Source: Lentisphaerota bacterium | GTDB taxonomy: Bacteria; Verrucomicrobiota; Kiritimatiellia; UBA8416; VGWJ01 | Assembly: GCA_016873635.1 (NCBI GenBank) | Contig: VGWJ01000005.1 | Location: 1-64,000, forward strand | Length of the DNA stretch: 64,000 nucleotides | Reading direction: 5' to 3' | In this document: positions 1,761-64,000 of the stretch, in pieces | How positions within the stretch are numbered: the stretch's first letter is position 1 | Layout: each line of letters starts with the position of its first letter | The notes under the pieces: generated by a model | Database searches by the model: none | Seen by the model: only the letters and a program-made list of their open reading frames with translations | What the model was told of the DNA's origin: nothing | Position numbers and translations under genes: made by a program

Positions 1761-3737
1761 CTATGGCGTAAGCGCGAAGCGCAGACCGGGCGCCGTCTGG
1801 ATCTGGTAGGCCTGGCCGAAGCCGTCGTCGTCGTCGGACACGGTGGCGTTGAGGCCGAACTCCTCACCCGGTTTCAGGCCGAGGGCGGCCAGCGGGAGGC
1901 GGAGTTCGTAGCGGGTAACGCCGCCGGAGTCATCCCGCGTCACGGCAATCCCGGCGGTTTTCGCCAATTCATCGTTCGTGCCCTGCCACTGATGGAAGGC
2001 CACACCCGTCTTGGTCAGCGCCAACCCGATCTTCCAACGTGCCCCTTGCGCGGCGGACAGTCCCAGCGTGAGGCAGTCGCCGCGCTCGATGTCCTGCGAG
2101 GTGTACGCGTTGAAGTGCTTGTCGTCGGCGGCTTCGACGGCCATGCACAGCGCATCGCCGTCCCAGCCCAGATGCACCCTGGCGCCCAAGTCTTTGTCGC
2201 CCTGCCACGAAGCCGCGTCCTCGCCCGCCTCCTCGGGCGGGGGCTGACGAAAACGCTCGGGGTAGAGGTCTTCCGGGCCGCCCAGCGCGGCGAGGGGCTT
2301 GTCCCACTCGTCCAGCGCGCCGTCGGCGCGCATCGCGCGCGCCAGCCGCGCGACCGAACGGGTGACGACACGGTAGACCATGTCCGCTTTCACTCCCGTA
2401 TCGCCGGCCGCCGCGCCCTGAAGCGAGCTTTGCTCTGCTTCACGGGGAACCGAACGAACGGCGCGCCAGCCGCCAATTGTATGAATGGAGCGATCGGAGA
2501 ACACGCTGATCGCGGCGTGCCTGGCGGCCACGCTGCCGCCGTGAGTACCCCTCATGTCGCCGCGAAACACAACGCCGTCAAGGTCCTTCGGCCAGTCAGC
2601 CGGCAAGTCCGGCGTGCCGCGGCCGTGCGTCCCGGCAAACTTGCGCCCGCTGGCGCTGGCGATCGAAACCATCCGCTCGTTGAGACCGCCGACATTCATG
2701 TTTCGGAAGTCGCTGCCCGCCCCGGCCGCCTTTTCGTACTCGAGCTCCGTCATCGGGCGGAGCCCCGCCCAGGCGGCGAACGCCGCTCCGTCCGCCCAGG
2801 AAACGTACCGGCAGGGCTCGGCAGGCGACGATGCCGTGTAGGTGTAGTTGGAGGGAGTTCCGGAACGCTTGATATCGGGCCCGTGCCCGTCGGGATAGTA
2901 GCGCTTCCCGGCCTGCGCATCCGTAAGCGTGTTGAGGAAGGCGGCGTACTGCCCCTGGGAAAGCACATCCTTCATGCAGTAGAAGGCCGCGAAGCCGTTT
3001 GGAAAGGACGCCGGGATCTCTCCGCCGTCTTCCGGGGCGAGGCCCTGCGCCCAGAGTCTGCCCTGCTGCCGGCCGGTCGGTATCGCCCCCGGTCCCGTTA
3101 TCCGGTAGGGCGGGGTATTGTCGGCAAAATCGGAATAGTCGGTCTGAAAATGCCTCTCGGTCCGGCTAACGTCCTTGCCGGCGTATGCGAACAAACGGTT
3201 CATCAGTCCCCGCTGGGAGGAGCCCACTTCAAAGGGACCCTCGGGCACGTAGGCCATTTCGAGGGCGAAAACGCGGAGCTCGGTTGTCGGTTGCTGGTTG
3301 TCGGTTGTCGGCGTATCGACGGAGATGACCGCCGTGACGTTACTGGCAATGAGCGTGCCCCTGCAGTCCTGGGTGCGGCGCAGGAACATGCCGACGGAGC
3401 CGTCCGGGACGACAAACTCGAGCGCCGTGCCGCCGCTCTGTCCGAAACCCTTCGGGTTTACAACCGCCCCGTTGCTTGCCGCCAGGCGCACGTGGCGCCA
3501 CTGGGCACTGCCTTGGTCGCCTGCCTTGAAAAACACCCACAGCGCGACGTGATGCGTTCCCGGGCGCACGGCATCCGGCCAGGTCAGGTCGAAACGCACC
3601 TGCGCCGTCTGCCCGTCGCGCGGGACCACGGTGACATTGCTGACTTGCGGCGTGTCCGCGCCGGCCGCGCCGGCCGCCAGCAGCACGGCGCCTGTGACGG
3701 CGAGCGCCAAACGGCGGGCCGGCTTGTTCTCTGTCAT
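1761..3737 (-). CDS. secreted SUMF1-fold protein with C-terminal CBM9-like domain
   Basis: A 658-residue protein with an N-terminal signal peptide (to about residue 27, LLAAGAAGA). A beta-rich domain follows (about 30-145, with VALWVFFKAGDQGSAQWRHV and VGMFLRRTQD) that is shared with the next two genes. A SUMF1/FGE-like domain spans about 155-430 (EMAYVPEGPF, FPNGFAAFYCMKDVLSQGQY, LRPMTELEYEKAAGAG). Residues 445-658 resemble CBM9-like surface domains (DGALDEWDKPLAAL ... YELRLPLAALGLKPGEEFG). The Cys pair that makes formylglycine in true FGE is absent, so a binding or structural role is likely. A GGAAAGGA-type SD precedes ATG 3737. A heptamer repeat forms its inter-domain linker. Confidence 0.85.
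   Translation of the reverse strand: MTENKPARRLALAVTGAVLLAAGAAGADTPQVSNVTVVPRDGQTAQVRFDLTWPDAVRPGTHHVALWVFFKAGDQGSAQWRHVRLAASNGAVVNPKGFGQSGGTALEFVVPDGSVGMFLRRTQDCRGTLIASNVTAVISVDTPTTDNQQPTTELRVFALEMAYVPEGPFEVGSSQRGLMNRLFAYAGKDVSRTERHFQTDYSDFADNTPPYRITGPGAIPTGRQQGRLWAQGLAPEDGGEIPASFPNGFAAFYCMKDVLSQGQYAAFLNTLTDAQAGKRYYPDGHGPDIKRSGTPSNYTYTASSPAEPCRYVSWADGAAFAAWAGLRPMTELEYEKAAGAGSDFRNMNVGGLNERMVSIASASGRKFAGTHGRGTPDLPADWPKDLDGVVFRGDMRGTHGGSVAARHAAISVFSDRSIHTIGGWRAVRSVPREAEQSSLQGAAAGDTGVKADMVYRVVTRSVARLARAMRADGALDEWDKPLAALGGPEDLYPERFRQPPPEEAGEDAASWQGDKDLGARVHLGWDGDALCMAVEAADDKHFNAYTSQDIERGDCLTLGLSAAQGARWKIGLALTKTGVAFHQWQGTNDELAKTAGIAVTRDDSGGVTRYELRLPLAALGLKPGEEFGLNATVSDDDDGFGQAYQIQTAPGLRFALTP
3280..3311. 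repeat. heptanucleotide tandem repeat inside a coding region
   Basis: TCGGTTG is repeated at period 7 (3280-3286, 3287-3293, CTGGTTG 3294-3300, 3301-3307, then TCGG). On the coding strand it encodes the TTDNQQPTT linker between the first domain and the SUMF1 domain, showing that the repeat family can invade genes at inter-domain linkers. Confidence 0.85.
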
Positions 3738-8610: not shown

Positions 8611-9054
8611 ATGAACGTCGCCGACCTCAAGAACATCACCGGCCGCGCTTATCCGGCGCGGCGCAGAACGCAGAACCTGGTAGGCGGGGCCTCGCCCGTG
8701 CAGGCCGAGCACTTTGCGATGGGGCTGGTCACGCTGGAGCCGCGCGGCGGACAGGTGCCGTGGCACAGCCAGGAGCAGGAGGAGGTCTACTTCATCCTGG
8801 AAGGGGTGGGGGAGATGTGCCTGGGGGACGAGGTCCGCGAGCTTTGCGCCGGCCAGATCGTGAAGATACCGCCGGGGGTGTACCACCAGCTTTCCAACAA
8901 GGGCGGCGCGCCGCTGCGGATGATCTACTGCTACGGGCCCGCCGGAGACGCGGCGCACTGGAGGCAGGAACTCGCGGGGACGCTTCCGCGGGCCGGCGTG
9001 GAGGCGCCGCCCCTGCCCGCGGGCGCGCAGTACCCGCAGCGCACGGAGGCGTGA
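8611..9054 (+). CDS. cupin-domain protein
   Basis: A 147-residue single-domain cupin. Motif 1 is seen as VPWHSQEQEEVYFILEGVGE (metal ligands H-x-x-x-x-E-E) and motif 2 as GQIVKIPPGVYHQLSNKG. Such proteins bind a metal and act as small isomerases, dioxygenases or sensors of sugars; the exact substrate is unknown. ATG 8611 begins the conserved part; the frame extends upstream without a good SD. It is followed one base after the stop by a Gfo/Idh/MocA gene, suggesting a shared role in sugar or polyol metabolism. Confidence 0.85.
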   Translation: MNVADLKNITGRAYPARRRTQNLVGGASPVQAEHFAMGLVTLEPRGGQVPWHSQEQEEVYFILEGVGEMCLGDEVRELCAGQIVKIPPGVYHQLSNKGGAPLRMIYCYGPAGDAAHWRQELAGTLPRAGVEAPPLPAGAQYPQRTEA

Positions 9055-9055
9055 T

Positions 9056-10234
9056 ATGCAGACCAGACGCATCGGAATCATCGTAAACGGCGTGACCGGG
9101 CGCATGGGCACGCACCAGCACCTGGACCGGTCGCTTTCGGCGATCATCAGACAGGGCGGAATCCGCGTGGGGACCGGCGCCGCGATCATGCCGGACCTGA
9201 TTTTGACCGGCCGCAACGAGGACAAGCTCGCGGCGCTGGCCCGCGCGCACGGCCCGCCCGCGATCGGGAAGCCCTACGCCTATACGACCGACGTGCAGGG
9301 GGCGCTGGACGGCAAGTACGGCGACTTCGAGGTGTTCTTTGACGCCTCGGCCACGCAGCAGCGCTCACGGTTTGTCGAAATGGCGGTCAAGGCCGGCAAG
9401 GCCGTGTACTGCGAGAAGCCCACGGCCACCGTCACGGCCGAAGCCGTGCGCCTGGCGAGGCTGGCGGGGGACGCGGGCCTCAAGAACGGCGTGGTGCAGG
9501 ACAAGCTGTGGCTTCCGGGTTTCCGCAAGCTCCGGATGCTCAAGGATCTCGGTTTCTTCGGCCGGATTCTCGCCGTGAAGGGCGATTTCGGCTACTGGGT
9601 GTTCAGCGGACTGGACTGCGACCAGCCGGCGCAGCGGCCGAGCTGGAACTACCGCGCGGAGGACGGCGGCGGCATGATGATCGACATGTTCTGCCATTGG
9701 CAGTACGTGATCAGCAACCTGTTCGGGCCCGTCAGGCGTCTCGTGGCCTGCGGGTACACGGGCCTGCCCCGGCGCCGGGACGAGGCAGGCAACGTCTTCG
9801 CGGCCACCGCGGATGACGCGGCCTACGCGATTTTCGTTCTGGACGACGGCACGGTGGCGCAGTTCAACAGCTCGTGGCACACGCGCGTGCGGCGGGACGA
9901 CCTGCTGACCGTGCAAGTCGACGGCGAGAAGGGGTCGGCGGTGGCGGGACTGCGCGAAGTGGTCGTGCAGAGCGCCGCCGGGACGCCGAAGCCGGTGTGG
10001 AACCCGGACGTTCCGCAGCCGGTTGACTTCTACGCGGGGTGGCAGACAGTCCCGGACAATATCGTCTACGACAACGCCTTCAAGATCCAGTGGGAGCTGT
10101 TCATCCGGCACGTGGCGCTCGATGAGCCCTGGAAATACACCCTGATGGAGGGGGCGCGGGGCGTTCAGCTTGCGGAGCTGGGCATGCGCTCGTGGAAGGA
10201 GCAGCGCTGGGTGGACGTCGAGCCGCTCCAATGA
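9056..10234 (+). CDS. Gfo/Idh/MocA family oxidoreductase
   Basis: A 392-residue NAD(P)-dependent oxidoreductase. The N-terminal Rossmann half begins RRIGIIVNGVTGRMGTHQHL, with the nucleotide-binding turn G-V-T-G-R-M-G, and contains VYCEKPTATV, the EKP motif whose Lys is catalytic in the family. The C-terminal beta-sheet half carries EDGGGMMIDMFCHWQYVISN, including the D-x-x-x-H pair. The family oxidises or reduces sugars and inositols. It is in one transcription unit with the cupin upstream. Confidence 0.9.
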   Translation: MQTRRIGIIVNGVTGRMGTHQHLDRSLSAIIRQGGIRVGTGAAIMPDLILTGRNEDKLAALARAHGPPAIGKPYAYTTDVQGALDGKYGDFEVFFDASATQQRSRFVEMAVKAGKAVYCEKPTATVTAEAVRLARLAGDAGLKNGVVQDKLWLPGFRKLRMLKDLGFFGRILAVKGDFGYWVFSGLDCDQPAQRPSWNYRAEDGGGMMIDMFCHWQYVISNLFGPVRRLVACGYTGLPRRRDEAGNVFAATADDAAYAIFVLDDGTVAQFNSSWHTRVRRDDLLTVQVDGEKGSAVAGLREVVVQSAAGTPKPVWNPDVPQPVDFYAGWQTVPDNIVYDNAFKIQWELFIRHVALDEPWKYTLMEGARGVQLAELGMRSWKEQRWVDVEPLQ

Positions 10235-10586
10235 AAGAGGACGCAACCGACGGCGAAGCCGTGGACGCCATCCTGATCGGCTACGGCCTGTGCAGCAACG
10301 GAATCGAGGGCATCGCGGCGCGGAAGCACCGCCTGGTCGCCGTCAGGGGCGAATGGCGCTAAGATTCGGGGACAACGATCACTACAGGCGGTACACCAGG
10401 GAATGCGCGGCGTGGCTGGGATGGCGATACGAGGAGCTGCCGGGCGACGCCCGGCTGATCATGAATCTCGTGGAAGGCAACTGGAGCGCGGGAGATTTTC
10501 TCGTCGTGGAGCCGGGCCGGAGGATCGTGGCCTCGCATGACGACGCGATCATCAGGGCGGAGGACGTTTTTCCGCCGCGCAACTGA
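10231..10586 (+). pseudogene. broken DUF1638-family gene
   Basis: Frame 1 from ATG 10231 encodes DAILIGYGLCSNGIEGIAAR, the core signature of DUF1638 proteins, then stops at 10362. Another frame picks up at about 10350 with WRYEELPGDARLIMNLVEGN and FLVVEPGRRIVASHDDAIIR, the C-terminal part of the same family. The N-terminal 50 or so residues and the whole middle (including the usual cysteine-rich and H-D-C region) are missing. The start overlaps the stop of the oxidoreductase as ATGA. It is a deletion plus frameshift relic. Confidence 0.75.
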
Positions 10587-10590
10587 CGCA

Positions 10591-10619
10591 TTGCCAGGGC
10601 CGGGGCCGCGGCGTATGCT
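10591..10619 (+). promoter_or_regulatory. sigma-70-type promoter for the GTPase gene
   Basis: TTGCCA (10591-10596), a 17-base spacer and TATGCT (10614-10619). Transcription would begin about 10626, only a few bases before ATG 10629, so the message would be nearly leaderless; no SD is visible. Confidence 0.5.
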
Positions 10620-10628
10620 TGATGCGTT

Positions 10629-11147
10629 ATGAAGAAGAAGGTGTGCATGCTGGGCGGATTCGGCGTGGGCAAGACCAGCCTCGTGCGCCGCTTCGTTTCC
10701 AGCATGTTTTCCGAGAAGTACCTGACCACGGTGGGGGTCAAGATCGACAAGAAGACGGTCGCCGTCGACGGCGGCGCGGTGGACCTGCTGATCTGGGATC
10801 TTCAGGGCGAGGACGAGGCGCGCGAGACGCCCGAAGCCTACCTGCGCGGGGCGGCCGGATGCGCGCTGGTGGCGGACGGCACGCGCGGCGCCACCATGGA
10901 CACGGCCCTGGCCATTCGCGAACGCGTGCGGGGCGTGCTGGGCGACGTCCCCTTCCTGTTCCTCCTGAACAAGTCCGACCTGGGCGCCGAATGGGATCTC
11001 GGCGCGGCGGACGTGGCGCGCCTCGACGGCAAGGCCTGCGCGGTCCTGCGCACAAGCGCCAAGACGGGTGAAGGCGTGGAAGAGGCGTTCGCGGCCCTGG
11101 CCCGCGCGGTGGCCGGAAACGTGAGCGGGACGCCAGCCCTTGAATAA
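10629..11147 (+). CDS. Ras/Rab-like small GTPase
   Basis: A 172-residue bacterial member of the Ras-like superfamily. All G motifs are visible: P-loop GGFGVGKTSL (G1), switch I region KYLTTVGVKID (G2 Thr), WDLQGED (G3, with Q-G-E in place of A-G-Q), LLNKSDLG (G4) and LRTSAKTGEG (G5). It should switch between GTP and GDP forms in the cytoplasm. Its stop overlaps the TTG start of a PAS/sigma-54 activator, implying that the GTPase state is coupled to transcription control. Confidence 0.92.
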   Translation: MKKKVCMLGGFGVGKTSLVRRFVSSMFSEKYLTTVGVKIDKKTVAVDGGAVDLLIWDLQGEDEARETPEAYLRGAAGCALVADGTRGATMDTALAIRERVRGVLGDVPFLFLLNKSDLGAEWDLGAADVARLDGKACAVLRTSAKTGEGVEEAFAALARAVAGNVSGTPALE

Positions 11148-12885
11148 GTTGAGCGAGCCATACCCGCATCCCGTCCTGGACGAGCTCCAGGCGCTGTGCG
11201 TCAAGGACCGCGCTCCCGCCTACGTGCTGGTCGGTCCGGACGGGTTGTTGCGCGACTGGGGCGGTTTCTGCGAAAACTACGGCCTGACAGACCTGTCCAG
11301 GGGGCGTTCCGCCGCGGATCAAATCGACTGCCTGGCCGGCGTGTTGCCGCTGGGCGGGGCTTCGATGCGTCTTTCGTTCGTGGAGCTGACGCCCGACGTC
11401 ACGGCGGACGTCTATTTCCTGTCGCGCCCCGAAGGCGACTGGGTGCTGTTCGTGGACTCCACGGTGGAAGCGCGGCGCCTGGAGCGGCTGCAGCAGAGCG
11501 GCAACGACCTGGCGCTGGCGCGGGCGAAGGAGAACCGTCTGCTGTCCGAGCTGCAGCGCAGCCACCGCAATCTGCTTGCCGTTCTGGACCAGCTACGGCT
11601 TGTCACGGCCATCATTGACGGGGAAGGGCGGGTCCTATTTCTCAGCAGCCTGGGCCGGCAGCTCCTGGCGCACGGCGGCGGCGACCCGGTCGGGCGCGTG
11701 TGGACCGAGGTCTTCCGCCTGTTGCCTGACGACGGCCGCGAACTCCGGGGAGCGATCGAGGCGCCCGCCGCGCGGCGCAGGCGCATGCTGGTGCAGACGC
11801 GTTCCGCGGAGCCCGAGCGGCGCTGGTTCGAGGTGGACGTCCGCGACGATCCTTCCGACCCGGCGCGGCACATCCTTTATCTTTACGATGTCACCGACGT
11901 GCAGAACCTCCGGCGGCAGCTCAAGGGCAAGACGCAGTTCTACGGCATCCTTGGCCGCTGTCCGGAGATGCGGCGCGTGTTCGGCCTGGTGCAGGAGCTG
12001 GCCGGCATGGATACGACCGTTCTGATCGAAGGCGAGACGGGCACGGGCAAGGAGCTTGTGGCGCGGGCCATCCACGAGGCAAGCCCCAGGCGCGACAAGC
12101 CTTTTGTGACCGTCAATTGCGGCGGCCTGAGCGATTCGCTCATCAACAGCCAGCTTTTCGGCCACCGCAAGGGGTCGTTCACCGACGCGGTGAACGACCA
12201 GGAAGGCGTTTTCGAAGCCGCGCACGGCGGCACGATTTTCCTGGACGAAATCGGCGATATCCCGCCCAACACGCAGACGCGCATCCTGCGCGTGCTTGAG
12301 CAGCGCGAGATCGTGCGCGTGGGCGACACCAGGCCGCGGCCCATCCAGATTCGCGTGCTCGCGGCGACGCACCGCGACCTTGACGAACAGGTCCGGCGCA
12401 ACGCTTTCCGTTCCGACCTCCTGTACCGCATCCGGGTGGCCCGGGTGCGCCTCCCGCCGCTGCGCGAACGGCGCGAGGACATACCGCCGCTGACGGAGTC
12501 GTTCCTGGAGACGGCCCGCGCCAGCACGGGCAAGCGCGTCGACGGTGTCGGCGCCGACGCCATGCGCGTTCTGATGCAGTACGCCTGGCCGGGAAACGTG
12601 CGGGAATTGCGCAACGCCGTGGAGTTCGCCGTGATCAGCTGCCGGGGAGGGACAATCACCGTGCGCGATCTGCCGCCGGAGGTCGCGGACCTGCGGCTGC
12701 CGCGGGCGGCGCGGCTGGGCTATGAGCCGGAAGGGGAGCGGGAGCGGATTCTGGAAGCCCTGCGGCGCGCGGGAGGCAGCCGCGCCGGGGCCGCGCGTCT
12801 GCTGGGCATCGGCCGCGCCACGCTTTACCGCCGCATGCGGGTATGCATGCTCGATCCGCGGGATCCGCAGGCCGGGGGGGGCTAG
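11140..12885 (+). CDS. PAS-domain sigma-54-dependent transcriptional activator
   Basis: A 581-residue enhancer-binding protein. An N-terminal sensory domain (about 20-120, YVLVGPDGLLRDWGGFCENY) and coiled coil precede a second PAS-like domain (145-260). The AAA+ domain (270-500) has Walker A GETGTGKE, Walker B GGTIFLDEIGD and an Arg-finger region RSDLLYRIRVARV. A Fis-type helix-turn-helix closes the protein (GSRAGAARLLGIGRATLYRR). The sigma-54 contact loop reads GSFTDA, not GAFTGA, keeping the key F-T. TTG 11140 starts inside the GTPase gene; no ATG lies nearby. Confidence 0.9.
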   Translation: MNKLSEPYPHPVLDELQALCVKDRAPAYVLVGPDGLLRDWGGFCENYGLTDLSRGRSAADQIDCLAGVLPLGGASMRLSFVELTPDVTADVYFLSRPEGDWVLFVDSTVEARRLERLQQSGNDLALARAKENRLLSELQRSHRNLLAVLDQLRLVTAIIDGEGRVLFLSSLGRQLLAHGGGDPVGRVWTEVFRLLPDDGRELRGAIEAPAARRRRMLVQTRSAEPERRWFEVDVRDDPSDPARHILYLYDVTDVQNLRRQLKGKTQFYGILGRCPEMRRVFGLVQELAGMDTTVLIEGETGTGKELVARAIHEASPRRDKPFVTVNCGGLSDSLINSQLFGHRKGSFTDAVNDQEGVFEAAHGGTIFLDEIGDIPPNTQTRILRVLEQREIVRVGDTRPRPIQIRVLAATHRDLDEQVRRNAFRSDLLYRIRVARVRLPPLRERREDIPPLTESFLETARASTGKRVDGVGADAMRVLMQYAWPGNVRELRNAVEFAVISCRGGTITVRDLPPEVADLRLPRAARLGYEPEGERERILEALRRAGGSRAGAARLLGIGRATLYRRMRVCMLDPRDPQAGGG

Positions 12886-58833: not shown

Positions 58834-60879
58834 TTACTCCCACATGCTCCTGATCTCGGCGGCGATGTCCCGGCGTGCGGCGAGGCCGGAGGACTCGTCT
58901 TCCCTTTCCATCTCTCCGGCGCTCTCGCCCTCCATCCGCGCGACGACCTCGGGCGTCAGGAAGCGGGAAGGCTGCGCGTAGCTGTGGCGGTCCGTGTGGG
59001 GATGCCAGGTATGGTAGTAGCGCAGCGGCCAGGTCACGTAGAGATGGTCCTTCGCGCGCGTCATGGCCACGTAGGCCAGGCGCAGCTCCTCCTCGATCTC
59101 CTCCGGCGTGTCGGTGGCCATGTCCGACGGCAGGCAGCCGTCGGAGGCGTGGATCAGGAAGACCGCGTCCCACTCGCAGCCCTTGGCCGAGTGGATGGTT
59201 GAGAGCACCAGCCAGTCTTCGTCCTTGAGCGGCGGGCCGGCCAGGTCGCCCGTGGAGCGCGGCGGGTCGAGCTGCAGATCGGACAGGAACTTGCGGCGCG
59301 ACCGGTAGCGCCCGGCAATCTGTTCCAGGCTTTCCAGGTCGCGCTCGCGCGCGCGGGGGTTCTCGTAGCGCTTCTTCAGCAGCGGCGCGTAGAAGCGGCG
59401 CACGCGTTCCACCTGGCTGGCGGGCGGCAGCCCGCCCGGCGCCAGGATATCCGCGGCCATGGCCCCGAAGGCGCGGAGCTGGTCCTGCGCGGCGGGCGCG
59501 CCCGTGAAGCCGGACGCGGCGCGCGGGTCGTTGCCCGCGGCCTGGACGTGGTCGATGACGCGCTGCGCGGTCGCCGGGCCCACGCCGTCCATGAGCTGCA
59601 GCAGGCGGAACCAGGCGATGCGGTCGCGGGGATTCTCCATCACCCGCAGGACGGCCACCAGGTCTTTCACGTGCGCGGCCTCCAGGAAACGCAGGCCGCC
59701 GTATTTCTGGTAGCGGATGTTGCGCTTGCCCAGTTCGACTTCCAGCGTGGCGGAAAGGTAGGCCGCGCGGAACAGCACGGCCTGGCGGCGCAGCGGGATG
59801 CCCTGCTCGTAGTGCTCGAGCACGCGGCCGATGACGTAGGCGTTCTGGGCGTCCTCGTCGCGGCAGGTCACCAGGCGCGGCTTCGCGCCCCCCGGGCGCG
59901 CGGACCACAGGTCCTTGGTGTAGCGCTCGCGGGACTGGGCGATGAGGCGGTTGGTCGTCTCCAGAATCGGCTGCACGGAGCGGTAGTTCTGCTCCAGGGC
60001 GGCGATGGCGGTTCCGGGAAAATGCCTGGGGAAGTCCAGCATGTTGCGGACCGTCGCGCCGCGGAAGCTGTAGATGCTCTGGGCGTCGTCGCCGACGACG
60101 GTGATATTGTCGTTGCCGCGCCGCATGCCGCGCAGGATTTCGGCCTGCACGCGGTTCGTGTCCTGGTACTCGTCCACCAGCACGTGGTCGAAGCGGCCGC
60201 TGATCTGCCGCGCGACGCGCTCGTCGCCGAGCAGTCTCATCCAGTAGAGCAGCAGGTCGTCGTAGTCCAGGACGTTCTGTTCCTGCTTGCGGGCCACGTA
60301 GCGCCTGAACAGTTCCTTGAGGTCCTGCTCCCAGTCCGCGCACCAGGGAAAGAAGCGCTTCAGGACTTCGGGGAGGCTTTCCACGCCGTTCACGCAGCGC
60401 GAGTAGACGGCCAGGCAGGTGCGCTTGCGCGGGAAACGCTTTTCGCGGCCGTGCAGGCCCATGTCGTGCCGGATGACGTTCAGCAGGTCTTCGGCGTCGC
60501 CCTCGTCCATCACGGTGAACTCCGCGTTGAGCCCGGCGGCCTTGGCGTAGATGCGCAGGAGGCGGTTGCCGATGGCGTGGAACGTGCCGCCCCAGGCGCG
60601 GGCGGTCGCGCCGGTGCCGCGCTCGATGACGGCCGCGGCGCGGCTGAGCATTTCCTGCGCGGCGCGCCGCGTGAAGGTCAGCAGGAGGATGCGGCCGGGG
60701 TCCGTGCCGCGGGCGATCAGGTAGGCCACCCGGCAGGCCAGGGTGCGGGTCTTGCCGGTCCCGGCGCCGGCCACGATCAGGAGCGGTCCGGCGCCGTGCG
60801 TGACCGCGCGGCGCTGGGCCGGATTGAGTTCGTCCAGCCACGCGTACTTTTCCGCGCCGTTCCGCGAGTCCGTACCCAT
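58834..60879 (-). CDS. UvrD/PcrA/Rep-type DNA helicase
   Basis: A 681-residue superfamily 1 helicase. Motifs: Q region LDELNPAQRRAVTHGAGPLL, Walker A AGAGTGKTRTL, Ia LLTFTRRAAQEML, II VLVDEYQDTNRVQ, III VVGDDAQSIYSFRGA, IV ALEQNYRS, V STIHSAKGCEWDAVFLIHA, VI EELRLAYVAMTRAKDHLYVT. It unwinds DNA in repair or restarts forks. No nuclease domain is attached, and the protein is of normal length. ATG 60879 begins 17 codons before the Q motif. Confidence 0.94.
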   Translation of the reverse strand: MGTDSRNGAEKYAWLDELNPAQRRAVTHGAGPLLIVAGAGTGKTRTLACRVAYLIARGTDPGRILLLTFTRRAAQEMLSRAAAVIERGTGATARAWGGTFHAIGNRLLRIYAKAAGLNAEFTVMDEGDAEDLLNVIRHDMGLHGREKRFPRKRTCLAVYSRCVNGVESLPEVLKRFFPWCADWEQDLKELFRRYVARKQEQNVLDYDDLLLYWMRLLGDERVARQISGRFDHVLVDEYQDTNRVQAEILRGMRRGNDNITVVGDDAQSIYSFRGATVRNMLDFPRHFPGTAIAALEQNYRSVQPILETTNRLIAQSRERYTKDLWSARPGGAKPRLVTCRDEDAQNAYVIGRVLEHYEQGIPLRRQAVLFRAAYLSATLEVELGKRNIRYQKYGGLRFLEAAHVKDLVAVLRVMENPRDRIAWFRLLQLMDGVGPATAQRVIDHVQAAGNDPRAASGFTGAPAAQDQLRAFGAMAADILAPGGLPPASQVERVRRFYAPLLKKRYENPRARERDLESLEQIAGRYRSRRKFLSDLQLDPPRSTGDLAGPPLKDEDWLVLSTIHSAKGCEWDAVFLIHASDGCLPSDMATDTPEEIEEELRLAYVAMTRAKDHLYVTWPLRYYHTWHPHTDRHSYAQPSRFLTPEVVARMEGESAGEMEREDESSGLAARRDIAAEIRSMWE

Positions 60880-61009: not shown

Positions 61010-61082
61010 GGCGGCGTAGCTCAGTCGGCAGAGCAGAGGAATCATAATCCTTGTGTCCGGGGTTCGAATCCCTGCGCCGCCA
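61010..61082 (+). tRNA. tRNA-Met (anticodon CAT)
   Basis: A full cloverleaf of 73 bases: acceptor GGCGGCG (61010-61016) with CGCCGCC (61075-61081) and discriminator A61082; D stem GCTC/GAGC; anticodon stem GAGGA/TCCTT with loop ATCATAA (CAT at 61043-61045); T arm CGGGG/CCCTG with TTCGAAT. The first pair is G-C and there is no initiator-type mismatch, so elongator Met is preferred; lysidine-modified tRNA-Ile2 also carries CAT and cannot be fully excluded. CCA is not encoded. Confidence 0.93.
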
Positions 61083-61092
61083 CTCAACCGTC

Positions 61093-62037
61093 ATGACCGC
61101 CACCGGATTGGCATACGACCCCGTGTACAAGGCGCACGTGCCGGGACGCTGGCATCCCGAGGCGCCGTGGCGCTGCGACGCGGCCCTGGCCGGGATCGAG
61201 GCGAGCGTGGGACTGGCCAATCTGGAAAGGATCGCGCCGCGGGCGGCGACGGACGACGAGCTGGCGCTGTGCCACACGCGGCGTTACATCGGCATCGCGC
61301 GGCGCGACGTGGCCTCGGGCATCGGCTGCCTGAGCACCGGCGATACGGACGTATGCGAGCGCTCGCTGGAGGCGGCCCTGTTCGCGGCGGGCGGCGTTCT
61401 GGCGGCGGTCGACGCGGTCGCGGCGGGCCGGGTCCGCAACGCGTTTTGCGCCGTGCGGCCGCCGGGCCACCACGCGACCCCCGACCGCGGGATGGGTTTC
61501 TGCATCTTCAACAACCTGGCCGTGGGCGTCCGGTACGCGCAGAGGAGGCACGGGGCGGGGAACGCGCTCATCGTGGACTGGGACGTGCACCACGGCAACG
61601 GCACGCAGGAGATCTTCTACGACGATCCGACCGTGCTGTACTTCAGCACGCACCAGTGGCCGCACTATCCCGGCACGGGCACGGCCGCCGAGACCGGGAG
61701 CGGCGCGGGGAAGGGACTGAACGTGAACTGCCCGCTGGGCGCCGGGGCGGGGCGTCGCGAAATCGAAGCCGCGTTCCGCGACCGCCTGCTTCCGCGCCTG
61801 AAGGATTTCAAGCCGGAGTTCGTGTTCGTATCGGCCGGGTTCGACGGCTTGCGCGGCGATCCGCTGGGTGGCCTGGATCTGACGGCGGAGGATTTCGGAT
61901 GGCTGACGCGCCTGGTGACGCACGTCGCGGAGGAATACGCGGGCGGAAGGCTTGTCTCAACGCTGGAGGGCGGCTACGATCGCGAAGGCTTGGGCCCGGC
62001 CGTGGGCGCGCACGTGAAGGCGCTGGCGGAAGGCTGA
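61093..62037 (+). CDS. histone deacetylase family hydrolase
   Basis: A 314-residue zinc hydrolase of the arginase/deacetylase fold (acetoin-utilisation, acetylpolyamine amidohydrolase or bacterial HDAC group). Signature residues: AVRPPGHHATPDRGMGFCIF with the catalytic His pair, zinc site IVDWDVHHGNGTQEIFYDDP (D-x-H), FVSAGFDGLRGDPLGGLDLT (the second Asp) and STLEGGYDREGL with the catalytic Tyr-loop. It should remove acyl groups from a small amine or protein lysine. ATG 61093 is 11 bases after the tRNA. Confidence 0.92.
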   Translation: MTATGLAYDPVYKAHVPGRWHPEAPWRCDAALAGIEASVGLANLERIAPRAATDDELALCHTRRYIGIARRDVASGIGCLSTGDTDVCERSLEAALFAAGGVLAAVDAVAAGRVRNAFCAVRPPGHHATPDRGMGFCIFNNLAVGVRYAQRRHGAGNALIVDWDVHHGNGTQEIFYDDPTVLYFSTHQWPHYPGTGTAAETGSGAGKGLNVNCPLGAGAGRREIEAAFRDRLLPRLKDFKPEFVFVSAGFDGLRGDPLGGLDLTAEDFGWLTRLVTHVAEEYAGGRLVSTLEGGYDREGLGPAVGAHVKALAEG

Positions 62038-62146
62038 ATGATTGTATAGAGGCACTTGACCGGATTGGGGTCGGTCTATAGACTTCATGAGCGGGTTGGG
62101 CAGAGGGAATCCACGAACAAGCTGCAGTTGAGCGGAGGGCAGTAGC

Positions 62147-62710
62147 GTGGCTGATAGTGAGAATCAGGAAGCAGTAGAGGCTGGCGAACAAGGGACGACC
62201 GGCGGGGACAGACCGGGGACAGGCGACCAACGTATCGCAGAAGTCGGCTTTCACCACGTTGGCTTCTTGTCATGGATGCACTTCAATGCTTTCCAGGTGC
62301 GGGATGTGGGTGGCGTTCGTCTAGTTCAATTCGTTTTGGACGACGGGGGCCGCGACTTAGCCGTTCTCACCTGCTCAATCAGTTTGGGCGATTTGGAGAA
62401 GAACAGGGAACGGATTATGGCGTACGTTGGTGCCGTAGACCATCTTGCGGAGCCTGTCACCATGCGGTCTTCGTTCTCTGAGACGGCGCAGGTCTATGCT
62501 GTTCACTTCGTTCATGCTGCCCGCGTTGACAGCGATGCAGAGATTTCACTTTATGCCTTCTCGAAGGGCGCGCTCATACAGGCAACGAGAGGAAAAGTGG
62601 AGCCGTGCCGTGTTGAGACGCAGCCGGTTGTGTGCGCGTCGTCCAAGCTCTCAGTGCACGTTGGATGTCTGATGGCTCTGTTTGAACCGACGGGAGGAAA
62701 CAGCAAGTGA
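62147..62710 (+). CDS. hypothetical protein, first gene of an HNH-nuclease unit
   Basis: A 187-residue protein without a family I recognise. A charged, Gly/Glu-rich N-terminus (about 30 residues) precedes a compact beta-rich part: FHHVGFLSWMHFNAFQVRDV, VRLVQFVLDDGGRDLAVLTC, AQVYAVHFVHAARVDSDAEI, SLYAFSKGALIQATRG. GTG 62147 follows GGAGGG by nine bases, a good SD. Base use is less GC-rich than the neighbours. Its stop overlaps the next start (GTGA), so the unit is polycistronic. Confidence 0.6.
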   Translation: MADSENQEAVEAGEQGTTGGDRPGTGDQRIAEVGFHHVGFLSWMHFNAFQVRDVGGVRLVQFVLDDGGRDLAVLTCSISLGDLEKNRERIMAYVGAVDHLAEPVTMRSSFSETAQVYAVHFVHAARVDSDAEISLYAFSKGALIQATRGKVEPCRVETQPVVCASSKLSVHVGCLMALFEPTGGNSK

Positions 62711-63150
62711 TATCAATCAGCGCAGGCAGCGTCATGGAGGAAGTCGGCCCCGCCACATGCAATGCCGCCTACGTGGCAGCAAGCGAGGCGGCTGGGAGGG
62801 TGTGGCCTTGCGCGCGGTCGGCGGCGAGCGGACGTCCCACTGTGACGGGCAGGGCAACGAGCACTCCCGACAGATTGCGGATTCCCGTACCGGTATCGGG
62901 GTGGACTTGCAAGGATGAGGACCACCTTCAGGTTCTTGAGAGGCAGTATATCTTGGGGACTCTTCCCGATGACGACGAAGAGACCTACGAGAAGATGAAA
63001 GAACGGCGACGTCAGTTCATGTTTCGCCGCACAACTGCAGAGGTCGTAACGGAGTACAAGCAGCGAGCAGTACTGAAGCTCTTGAGTGAGGCGTTGTTGG
63101 AATATGTCAGGTTTTCCGAGTCCGAGAATCAGACGGGTCAACCGGCCTAA
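62707..63150 (+). CDS. hypothetical protein, second gene of the HNH-nuclease unit
   Basis: A 147-residue frame from GTG 62707 (or ATG 62734). The first 70 residues are low in structure and may be mis-read; the C-terminal part is convincing and helical: DEDHLQVLERQYILGTLPDD, DEETYEKMKERRRQFMFRRT, EYKQRAVLKLLSEALLEYVR. No family recognised. It overlaps the first gene by four bases and the HNH gene by 47, so either a frame problem or tight coupling exists here. Confidence 0.5.
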   Translation: MISISAGSVMEEVGPATCNAAYVAASEAAGRVWPCARSAASGRPTVTGRATSTPDRLRIPVPVSGWTCKDEDHLQVLERQYILGTLPDDDEETYEKMKERRRQFMFRRTTAEVVTEYKQRAVLKLLSEALLEYVRFSESENQTGQPA

Positions 63151-63697
63151 GTTCAAGCTTTGGAAGAGCACCTACCGCAAGGCCTATCCATTTCTTCTGT
63201 TGGATTTCGGTCGGCGTTGCGCCTATTCGCTGCAGCACATTTCGCGGGTGGGGGGCATGTTGGAGATTGACCATTTTGACCCCAGGGAGAAGAGGCGGAA
63301 AAGGCAGCACTACGACAACCTTTTTCCCGCGACGCCCCACTGCAATAGGGCGAAGTCGGCGACATGGCCTTCACGCTCGGAACGAATAAGGGACCTCAGG
63401 TTTCTGAACTGCTGCAAGGAAGGGGACTACGACCACGTGATTTTTGAAGATCCCGGCACACACCGTCTGGTGGGACTAACGGTATCGGCGAGATACCACA
63501 TCGCGAAACTGGAGCTCAATGCAGCGCACCTCGTCCGCGAAAGACAGGATCGCGCCAACTACCGCAGGCAGTTGTCATCGACCGAGGTTGGGTTTAGGCC
63601 TACGGCTTCGTTCGGCGCTCTGCTGGGCGTTGTCTCTGGTTTTCGGAGATTGGTTGAGCAGATGATCCCGCCAATCTTGCCGCCTCCATCGAGTTGA
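63104..63697 (+). CDS. HNH endonuclease-like protein
   Basis: A 197-residue protein with an HNH fold. The core runs CAYSLQHISRVGGMLEIDHF then YDNLFPATPHCNRAKSATWP: the catalytic H of I-D-H-F, the N of N-L-F and the C-N-x-x-K ending. It further carries FLNCCKEGDYDHVIFEDPGT and ARYHIAKLELNAAHLVRERQ, blocks typical of this uncharacterised HNH group. ATG 63104 is the first in-frame ATG before the conserved part. It may be a defence or mobile nuclease; function unproven. Confidence 0.78.
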   Translation: MSGFPSPRIRRVNRPKFKLWKSTYRKAYPFLLLDFGRRCAYSLQHISRVGGMLEIDHFDPREKRRKRQHYDNLFPATPHCNRAKSATWPSRSERIRDLRFLNCCKEGDYDHVIFEDPGTHRLVGLTVSARYHIAKLELNAAHLVRERQDRANYRRQLSSTEVGFRPTASFGALLGVVSGFRRLVEQMIPPILPPPSS

Positions 63698-63856
63698 GTA
63701 TTCCAGTTCAGTACGCTGCCGGGAGCGTGAGCCAGCGGCGCACTGAGCGGCGCGCTTCACTGCGTGGCATTGCAGAGACTGCGGAGCGGTCCTTGTTCTC
63801 GTGCTCGGGAGATCGGTTTCGAGGACGAGGACGATGGAGAGGATGGGTCAAGGGCA

Positions 63857-64000
63857 ATGCTGGTGAAAAGAAAGAAAAAGCGAAGCGTGCTGGGCGTGCA
63901 GCTGTCGCACGACTACGCCGCCTGCCTGGTGCAGGACGGGGCGGTGGTCGCCGCCGTGGCCGAAGAGCGCCTCAACCGCCGCAAGCATTGCCACTGGACC
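63857..64000 (+). CDS. carbamoyltransferase (NodU/CmcH family), 5' part
   Basis: From ATG 63857 the frame encodes 48 residues and runs off the window: a lysine/arginine-rich start, then SVLGVQLSHDYAACLVQDGA and VVAAVAEERLNRRKHCHW. This is the N-terminus of the NodU/HypF-related carbamoyltransferase family, where the first H-D belongs to the active site of the Kae1-like domain. These enzymes carbamoylate sugars, antibiotics or nodulation factors. The spacer 63698-63856 holds no gene. Confidence 0.85.
   Translation, partial: MLVKRKKKRSVLGVQLSHDYAACLVQDGAVVAAVAEERLNRRKHCHWT

Follow-up and report, generated by a model that had tools for sequence, protein, structure and literature searches.

Septu systems consist of the ATPase PtuA and the HNH nuclease PtuB, and type I-A retrons such as Ec78/Eco7 also carry PtuAB. 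According to published reports, PtuB alone is non-toxic in retron-Eco7, where only PtuA together with PtuB is toxic (PMC11555353), the PtuAB of this retron depletes tRNA-Tyr (PMC11555353), and Septu Ec-B88 is an example of a PtuAB system that can cut tRNA (PMC13096335). Here we describe a cassette of three small genes, gene 1, gene 2 and an HNH gene, in a 64,000-nt stretch of contig VGWJ01000005.1 from a Lentisphaerota bacterium (the window). As in Septu, the nuclease is of the PtuB type, since all 26 HNH relatives matched the PADLOC PtuB profile PDLC00337. Unlike Septu, the cassette has no ATPase, and two small proteins of unmatched families (187 and 147 aa) stand in place of PtuA. It shares with type I-A retrons a PtuB-type nuclease under further components, but no reverse transcriptase or PtuA was recognised beside it; a reverse transcriptase was recognised neither in the ORFs of the window nor among the PADLOC matches listed (25 of 78 families) for 109 neighbours of the loci.

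Other known arrangements resemble the cassette in part. Toxin-antitoxin-chaperone (TAC) systems such as CmdTAC also have three small genes, an effector and two dedicated controllers, but their effector is a different one, and a likeness of gene 1 to SecB is a candidate only. With type II toxin-antitoxin systems the cassette shares layout only, namely a small antitoxin-like gene overlapping a toxin-like gene, with a Phd-type partner present in relatives. Phd-HNH pairs of Poribacteria, described below, likewise place a small regulator gene immediately before a relative of this HNH gene, but this regulator has a Phd/YefM domain and gene 1 is absent. No description of the three-gene cassette was recognised among the papers listed in searches of the open-licence PMC literature. 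Judged by sequence comparison, the nuclease is of a known kind and the two partner genes belong to unmatched families, and the cassette is probably an undescribed module of the anti-virus or toxin-antitoxin type.

Layout and setting of the cassette

As shown in Table 1, the three genes lie on the same strand, and the overlaps reported in the preliminary description were present, GTGA (4 nt) between gene 1 and gene 2 and 47 nt between gene 2 and the HNH gene. ATG 63104 was taken as the start of the HNH gene because it matches the relatives beginning MS.. and yields the exact 47-nt overlap. Upstream of gene 1, one promoter-like match was found, while 0.4 were expected by shuffling. The atypical base composition that had been noted was also borne out, as the two kilobases of the cassette (62001-63000, 58.1% GC; 63001-64000, 58.3% GC) are the two lowest of the 64 1-kb windows.

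Table 1. Coordinates of the cassette, of its surroundings in the window and of cassettes with other partners of the nuclease.
Feature	Sequence	Position	Strand	Remarks
Gene 1	window	62147..62710	+	ORF, 187 aa, GTG start; candidate sensor or stabiliser
Gene 2	window	62707..63150	+	ORF, 147 aa, GTG start; candidate nuclease inhibitor or adaptor
HNH gene, PtuB-like	window	63104..63697	+	197 aa from ATG; 203 aa from first GTG at 63086
Sigma-70-like promoter match	window	62056..62084	+	directly 5' of gene 1; weak, 9/12, consensus match only
UvrD-like helicase gene	window	58834-60879	-	read from translation
tRNA-Met	window	61010-61083		
Histone-deacetylase-like gene	window	61094-62037	+	read from translation; 5' neighbour of cassette
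Carbamoyltransferase-like gene	window	start near 63860		read from translation; 3' neighbour of cassette
Phd/YefM-type + HNH pairs	Poribacteria	L036:364-1457; L037:7570-8633; L038:7570-8633; L039:7567-8627; L043:7654-8621		
Kinase + receiver-like + PtuB-like HNH cassette		L010:56-3342; L042:4955-10137; L061:1985-7173; L062:594-5561		often with N6-methyltransferase
Receiver-like + PtuB-like HNH		L063:3264-6101		same recurring cassette type; kinase gene not listed
Kinase/receiver/HNH cassette		L041:4799-8576; L044:4752-8570		no methyltransferase read

The suggestion that the cassette is an inserted island held in part. The foreign base composition agrees with it, but the histone-deacetylase-like gene separates tRNA-Met from the cassette, and neither a long flanking direct repeat nor an integrase was seen beside the cassette in the window. 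A tRNA-linked insertion was rejected because no long direct repeat flanks the cassette. No further defence gene was seen beside the cassette in the window.

The nuclease and its two partner proteins

The HNH motifs CAYSLQH, IDHF and CNRAK were all found in the third gene. The window protein matched Pfam PF01844 with an E-value of 2.6e-5 and 24.7 bits (cut-off 21.4) and the PADLOC PtuB profile with an E-value of 5.3e-11. D62, H63, N78, N87 and K90 (counted from the GTG at 63086) were invariant in the alignment of the 26 HNH relatives, and by PF01844 and this alignment the third gene has an HNH domain with the catalytic H, N and N/H. The family profile reached 18 PDB sequences at E ≤ 0.1, PtuB chains included, and Cas9-like and other HNH domains outranked the PtuB chains in this search. 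The HNH protein, whose type had been called uncharacterised, is thus related to PtuB, which serves as the nuclease in Septu and type I-A retrons, and we assign the third gene product by sequence as a PtuB-like HNH nuclease. Single-protein scans of the genome-contig and viral-contig collections found nothing. A second HNH-like frame (L030:9995-10468, minus strand, E 7e-14) was observed less than 2 kb from the cassette of L030.

Genes 1 and 2 were convincingly matched by no family in Pfam, NCBIfam, PADLOC or PDB sequences, in agreement with the preliminary description. For gene 1, a convincing Pfam match was lacking in all 17 family members, PDB sequences gave no match, and tblastn against plasmids returned nothing. 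The predicted model of gene 1 (mean pLDDT 86.3, pTM 0.77) is alpha/beta, with the order bbbb-a followed by bbb-a-bb-a. Foldseek searches of this model found nothing at E < 0.001 in the PDB, where the top rows were Pur-alpha, or among viral predicted structures. With VIA-align, PURA repeats I-II ranked first, with 101 residues aligned at Z 6.3 and rmsd 3.5, a middling fold match. The scores of a DNA deaminase and of two uncharacterised cyanobacterial proteins came within 1 of PURA, and several of the lower rows were PUR, PC4 and MRP1/2 proteins and a CdiI immunity protein of Enterobacter. Many of these matches we take to share a PUR/Whirly-type arrangement, and at Z < 8 the likeness may reflect this common arrangement only. 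An internal repeat (two bbbba units of the PUR type) was not significant, with an E-value of about 0.2.

Several candidate assignments were rejected. DUF3467 repeats in gene 1 had been suspected by eye; DUF3467 was not among the Pfam matches of the members, a search of 29 relatives turned up no DUF3467 protein for comparison, and the internal repeat stayed at the E-value given above. Gene 1 also matched an NDM lactamase (E 0.0023) with 17 bits where the cut-off is 580, and single members of the gene 1 or gene 2 families gave four weak matches in PADLOC, the best at E 0.0015; all of these were regarded as chance. A SecB-like chaperone, the first idea for gene 1, had no sequence or fold match among those listed and was kept as a rival explanation.

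The 20 members of the gene 2 family gave no convincing Pfam match, and a search of PDB structures returned nothing (best E 2.5). In the predicted model of gene 2, about the first 65 residues are disordered and are followed by three helices, most of whose length is modelled at pLDDT > 90. The disordered N-terminal part (window 62707-62900) changes fast, and in most of 19 members it contains a small/hydrophobic stretch reminiscent of a signal peptide or of a segment bound by a chaperone.

Recurrence of the cassette and other partners of the nuclease

The HNH alignment search returned 23 loci from genome contigs (15 with the label of Verrucomicrobiota or of one of its subgroups, 5 from Poribacteria and 3 others) and 4 loci from IMG/VR viral contigs. 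Leave-one-out profiles recovered the window genes with E-values of 1.8e-30 (gene 1), 3.6e-16 (gene 2) and 5.7e-70 (HNH). With these profiles, 16 of the 19 Verrucomicrobiota/viral loci showed an intact gene 1, gene 2 and the HNH gene, arranged as in the window; gene 2 was upstream of the HNH gene on the same strand in 18 of these 19 loci, and an intact gene 1 stood farther upstream in 16. Two loci carried a broken gene 1, frameshifted in L027 and both frameshifted and without its middle in L034, and in both the gene 2 and HNH frames remain open. L023 contained an intact HNH gene alone, with neither gene 1 nor gene 2 detectable, and the HNH gene of L040 was truncated by the contig end. Gene 1 and gene 2 were found by the same profiles in none of the 8 loci outside the Verrucomicrobiota/viral set. 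The overlap of gene 1 and gene 2 was 4 nt in 14 of 17 loci; the overlap of gene 2 and the HNH gene was computed in 15 of 17 loci and read from the DNA in the other two.

Among 387 sampled genomes of the phylum, gene 1 was detected in 5, gene 2 in 6 and HNH in 12, five of them strongly (E < 1e-49). The five genomes with strong HNH matches were the same five for gene 1 and gene 2, some rows of the query alignments deriving from these positive genomes and G332 being independent for gene 1. One of the six gene 2 genomes (G413) had a weak match over 31 positions (E 3e-4). Locus L009, in genome G281, has the same genes 1 and 2 as the Kiritimatiellae locus L032, and the window probably belongs to Kiritimatiellia within the Verrucomicrobiota. 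Pairwise distances of the three proteins correlated across 16 loci (Mantel r 0.64, 0.70 and 0.57), a correlation reached by at most 4 of 5000 permutations. In three pairs of relatives, none of the seven gene comparisons reached a dN/dS of 0.45, with L040/L048 saturated at synonymous sites. In the two closer pairs, L022 with L024 and L034 with L035, gene 2 evolved fastest, with a dN/dS of 0.22-0.25 compared with 0.07-0.08 for HNH and about 0.09 for gene 1 (L022/L024 only). The three genes therefore occur together elsewhere, in the 16 loci and the five shared genomes, and form one real conserved unit, more than expected by chance, as had been proposed.

Relatives of the nuclease were also found with other partners. 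At L036-L039, four of the five loci from Poribacteria, the HNH gene shares 4 nt with the gene immediately before it; this upstream gene matched Phd/YefM PF02604 over the cut-off in L037 (E 6.3e-8) and just under it in L036 and L039. The Poribacteria HNH proteins are 33-34% identical to that of the window, and the HNH gene of L043 is split across two frames. We know of no name for these pairs. A receiver-like gene was located upstream of the HNH gene and after a kinase gene in L041, L042, L044 and on Salipiger and Deinococcus plasmids; in L010 the receiver is preceded by a kinase-like gene, and for Ensifer a receiver was read upstream of the HNH gene. Pfam matched the receiver only below its cut-off in L042 and L044 and gave no such match in L010 or L041. 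An N6-methyltransferase-like gene accompanies L010, L042, Salipiger, Deinococcus and Ensifer. This kinase-receiver-HNH(-N6-methyltransferase) cassette, to our knowledge unnamed, recurs across several phyla and plasmids. Of the weaker HNH loci of the phylum genomes, L010 was read, and L011-L014 and L017-L021 were left out.

The C-terminal hairpins of gene 2 and of the Phd-type and receiver-type partners aligned in the same register, with a score reached by 0 or 1 of 100 shuffles. The hairpin is short, and its hhalign probability was 2-18%, or 0.2% with the full receiver alignment, giving a weak hint in the sequences of a common nuclease-binding element in the three partner types.

Proposed mechanism, rival explanations and genomic context

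We tentatively propose, with a probability of roughly 0.4, that a PtuB-like effector is silenced by gene 2 and that gene 1 is a sensor or stabiliser, the cassette acting in abortive-infection defence or in element maintenance. The HNH protein would be the effector, and gene 2, in the manner of an antitoxin or inhibitory adaptor, would use its C-terminal helices to bind and silence it. We infer this inhibition from the slot of gene 2, its overlap with the nuclease gene and the hairpin common to other regulators found there. Gene 1, with its predicted PUR/Whirly-like arrangement, may sense an infection signal, perhaps nucleic acid, or may stabilise gene 2. A change in gene 1 would then release the HNH protein, which would cut DNA or tRNA and so stop phage growth. 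Since L027 and L034 keep gene 2 and HNH without an intact gene 1, gene 2 alone may suffice to hold the nuclease. The lone intact HNH gene of L023, odd for a toxin, was counted against gene 2 as an inhibitor.

That same lone gene would suit a Septu-like activation, in which genes 1 and 2 replace PtuA and activate or scaffold the PtuB-like HNH protein, being required for cutting, with no antitoxin involved. This is possible but less probable than silencing by gene 2. The HNH protein is PtuB-like, and because PtuB requires PtuA for toxicity in retron-Eco7, as stated in that report (PMC11555353), it may need an activator and not an inhibitor. However, neither gene 1 nor gene 2 matched an ATPase, the loci with a broken gene 1 retain intact gene 2 and HNH, and a Phd-type antitoxin occupies the slot of gene 2 in Poribacteria. 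We consider it unlikely that gene 1 is instead a SecB-like chaperone that holds the hydrophobic N-terminus of gene 2 until phage proteins titrate it away. The three-gene layout, the CmdTAC precedent (PMC11618068) and the disordered gene 2 N-terminus with its small/hydrophobic stretch are consistent with such a role, but no SecB sequence or fold appeared among the gene 1 matches listed, and the strand/helix order of the gene 1 model differs from that of SecB. The order in SecB is bbbb-aa.

A still less probable reading is that the cassette persists through its own spread, with no role in defence, as a selfish element, a homing element or a phage moron. An HNH domain, foreign base composition and the four viral contigs would agree with this, but the nuclease matches PtuB profiles, tblastn of the window HNH protein found no relative in 50,697 phage records, and two conserved partner genes accompany the HNH gene. 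A broader idea, which we hold to be doubtful, is that the PtuB-like HNH protein is a plug-in effector whose partners combine a common binding hairpin with an exchangeable sensor; the sensor would be a Phd domain, a receiver under the control of a GHKL kinase, or a disordered tail that a PUR-like gene 1 would read, and the window cassette would be an undescribed system sensing phage nucleic acid. If control of the nuclease by genes 1 and 2 is true, two protein families without known relatives are added, in Verrucomicrobiota, to those that control a known defence nuclease, and one nuclease family is under at least four unrelated controls, namely the PtuA ATPase, the Phd antitoxin, the kinase-receiver pair and genes 1 and 2. 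The rule for holding or releasing PtuB-type enzymes would then become directly testable.

The defence role raised in the preliminary description is plausible in view of the nuclease family, the patchy distribution, the four viral contigs and the likely defence island in L035. In L035, a C5-methyltransferase-like gene (1055-2260) is followed by the cassette and by IetS and IetA (9859-12647), and L035:1055-12647 is likely a defence island. Against a defence role, the neighbour families listed for the loci mostly belong to ordinary metabolism. Among the four IMG/VR contigs, L047 has an integrase match directly after the HNH gene, and L048 encodes a protein read as a large terminase, for which PHROGs gives no function. 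PADLOC matches to SNF2-type helicases (DpdE, ZorD) were not counted, as they probably represent one long SNF2/SWIM-like helicase in L026, judged by reading. The neighbouring genes of the loci also gave a match to a type II restriction enzyme, which may belong to the L035 gene at 2260-3336. In L022, an ORF with an NPPY methyltransferase motif (8639-11035) starts 11 bases 3' of the HNH stop and was not seen there in the close relative L024.
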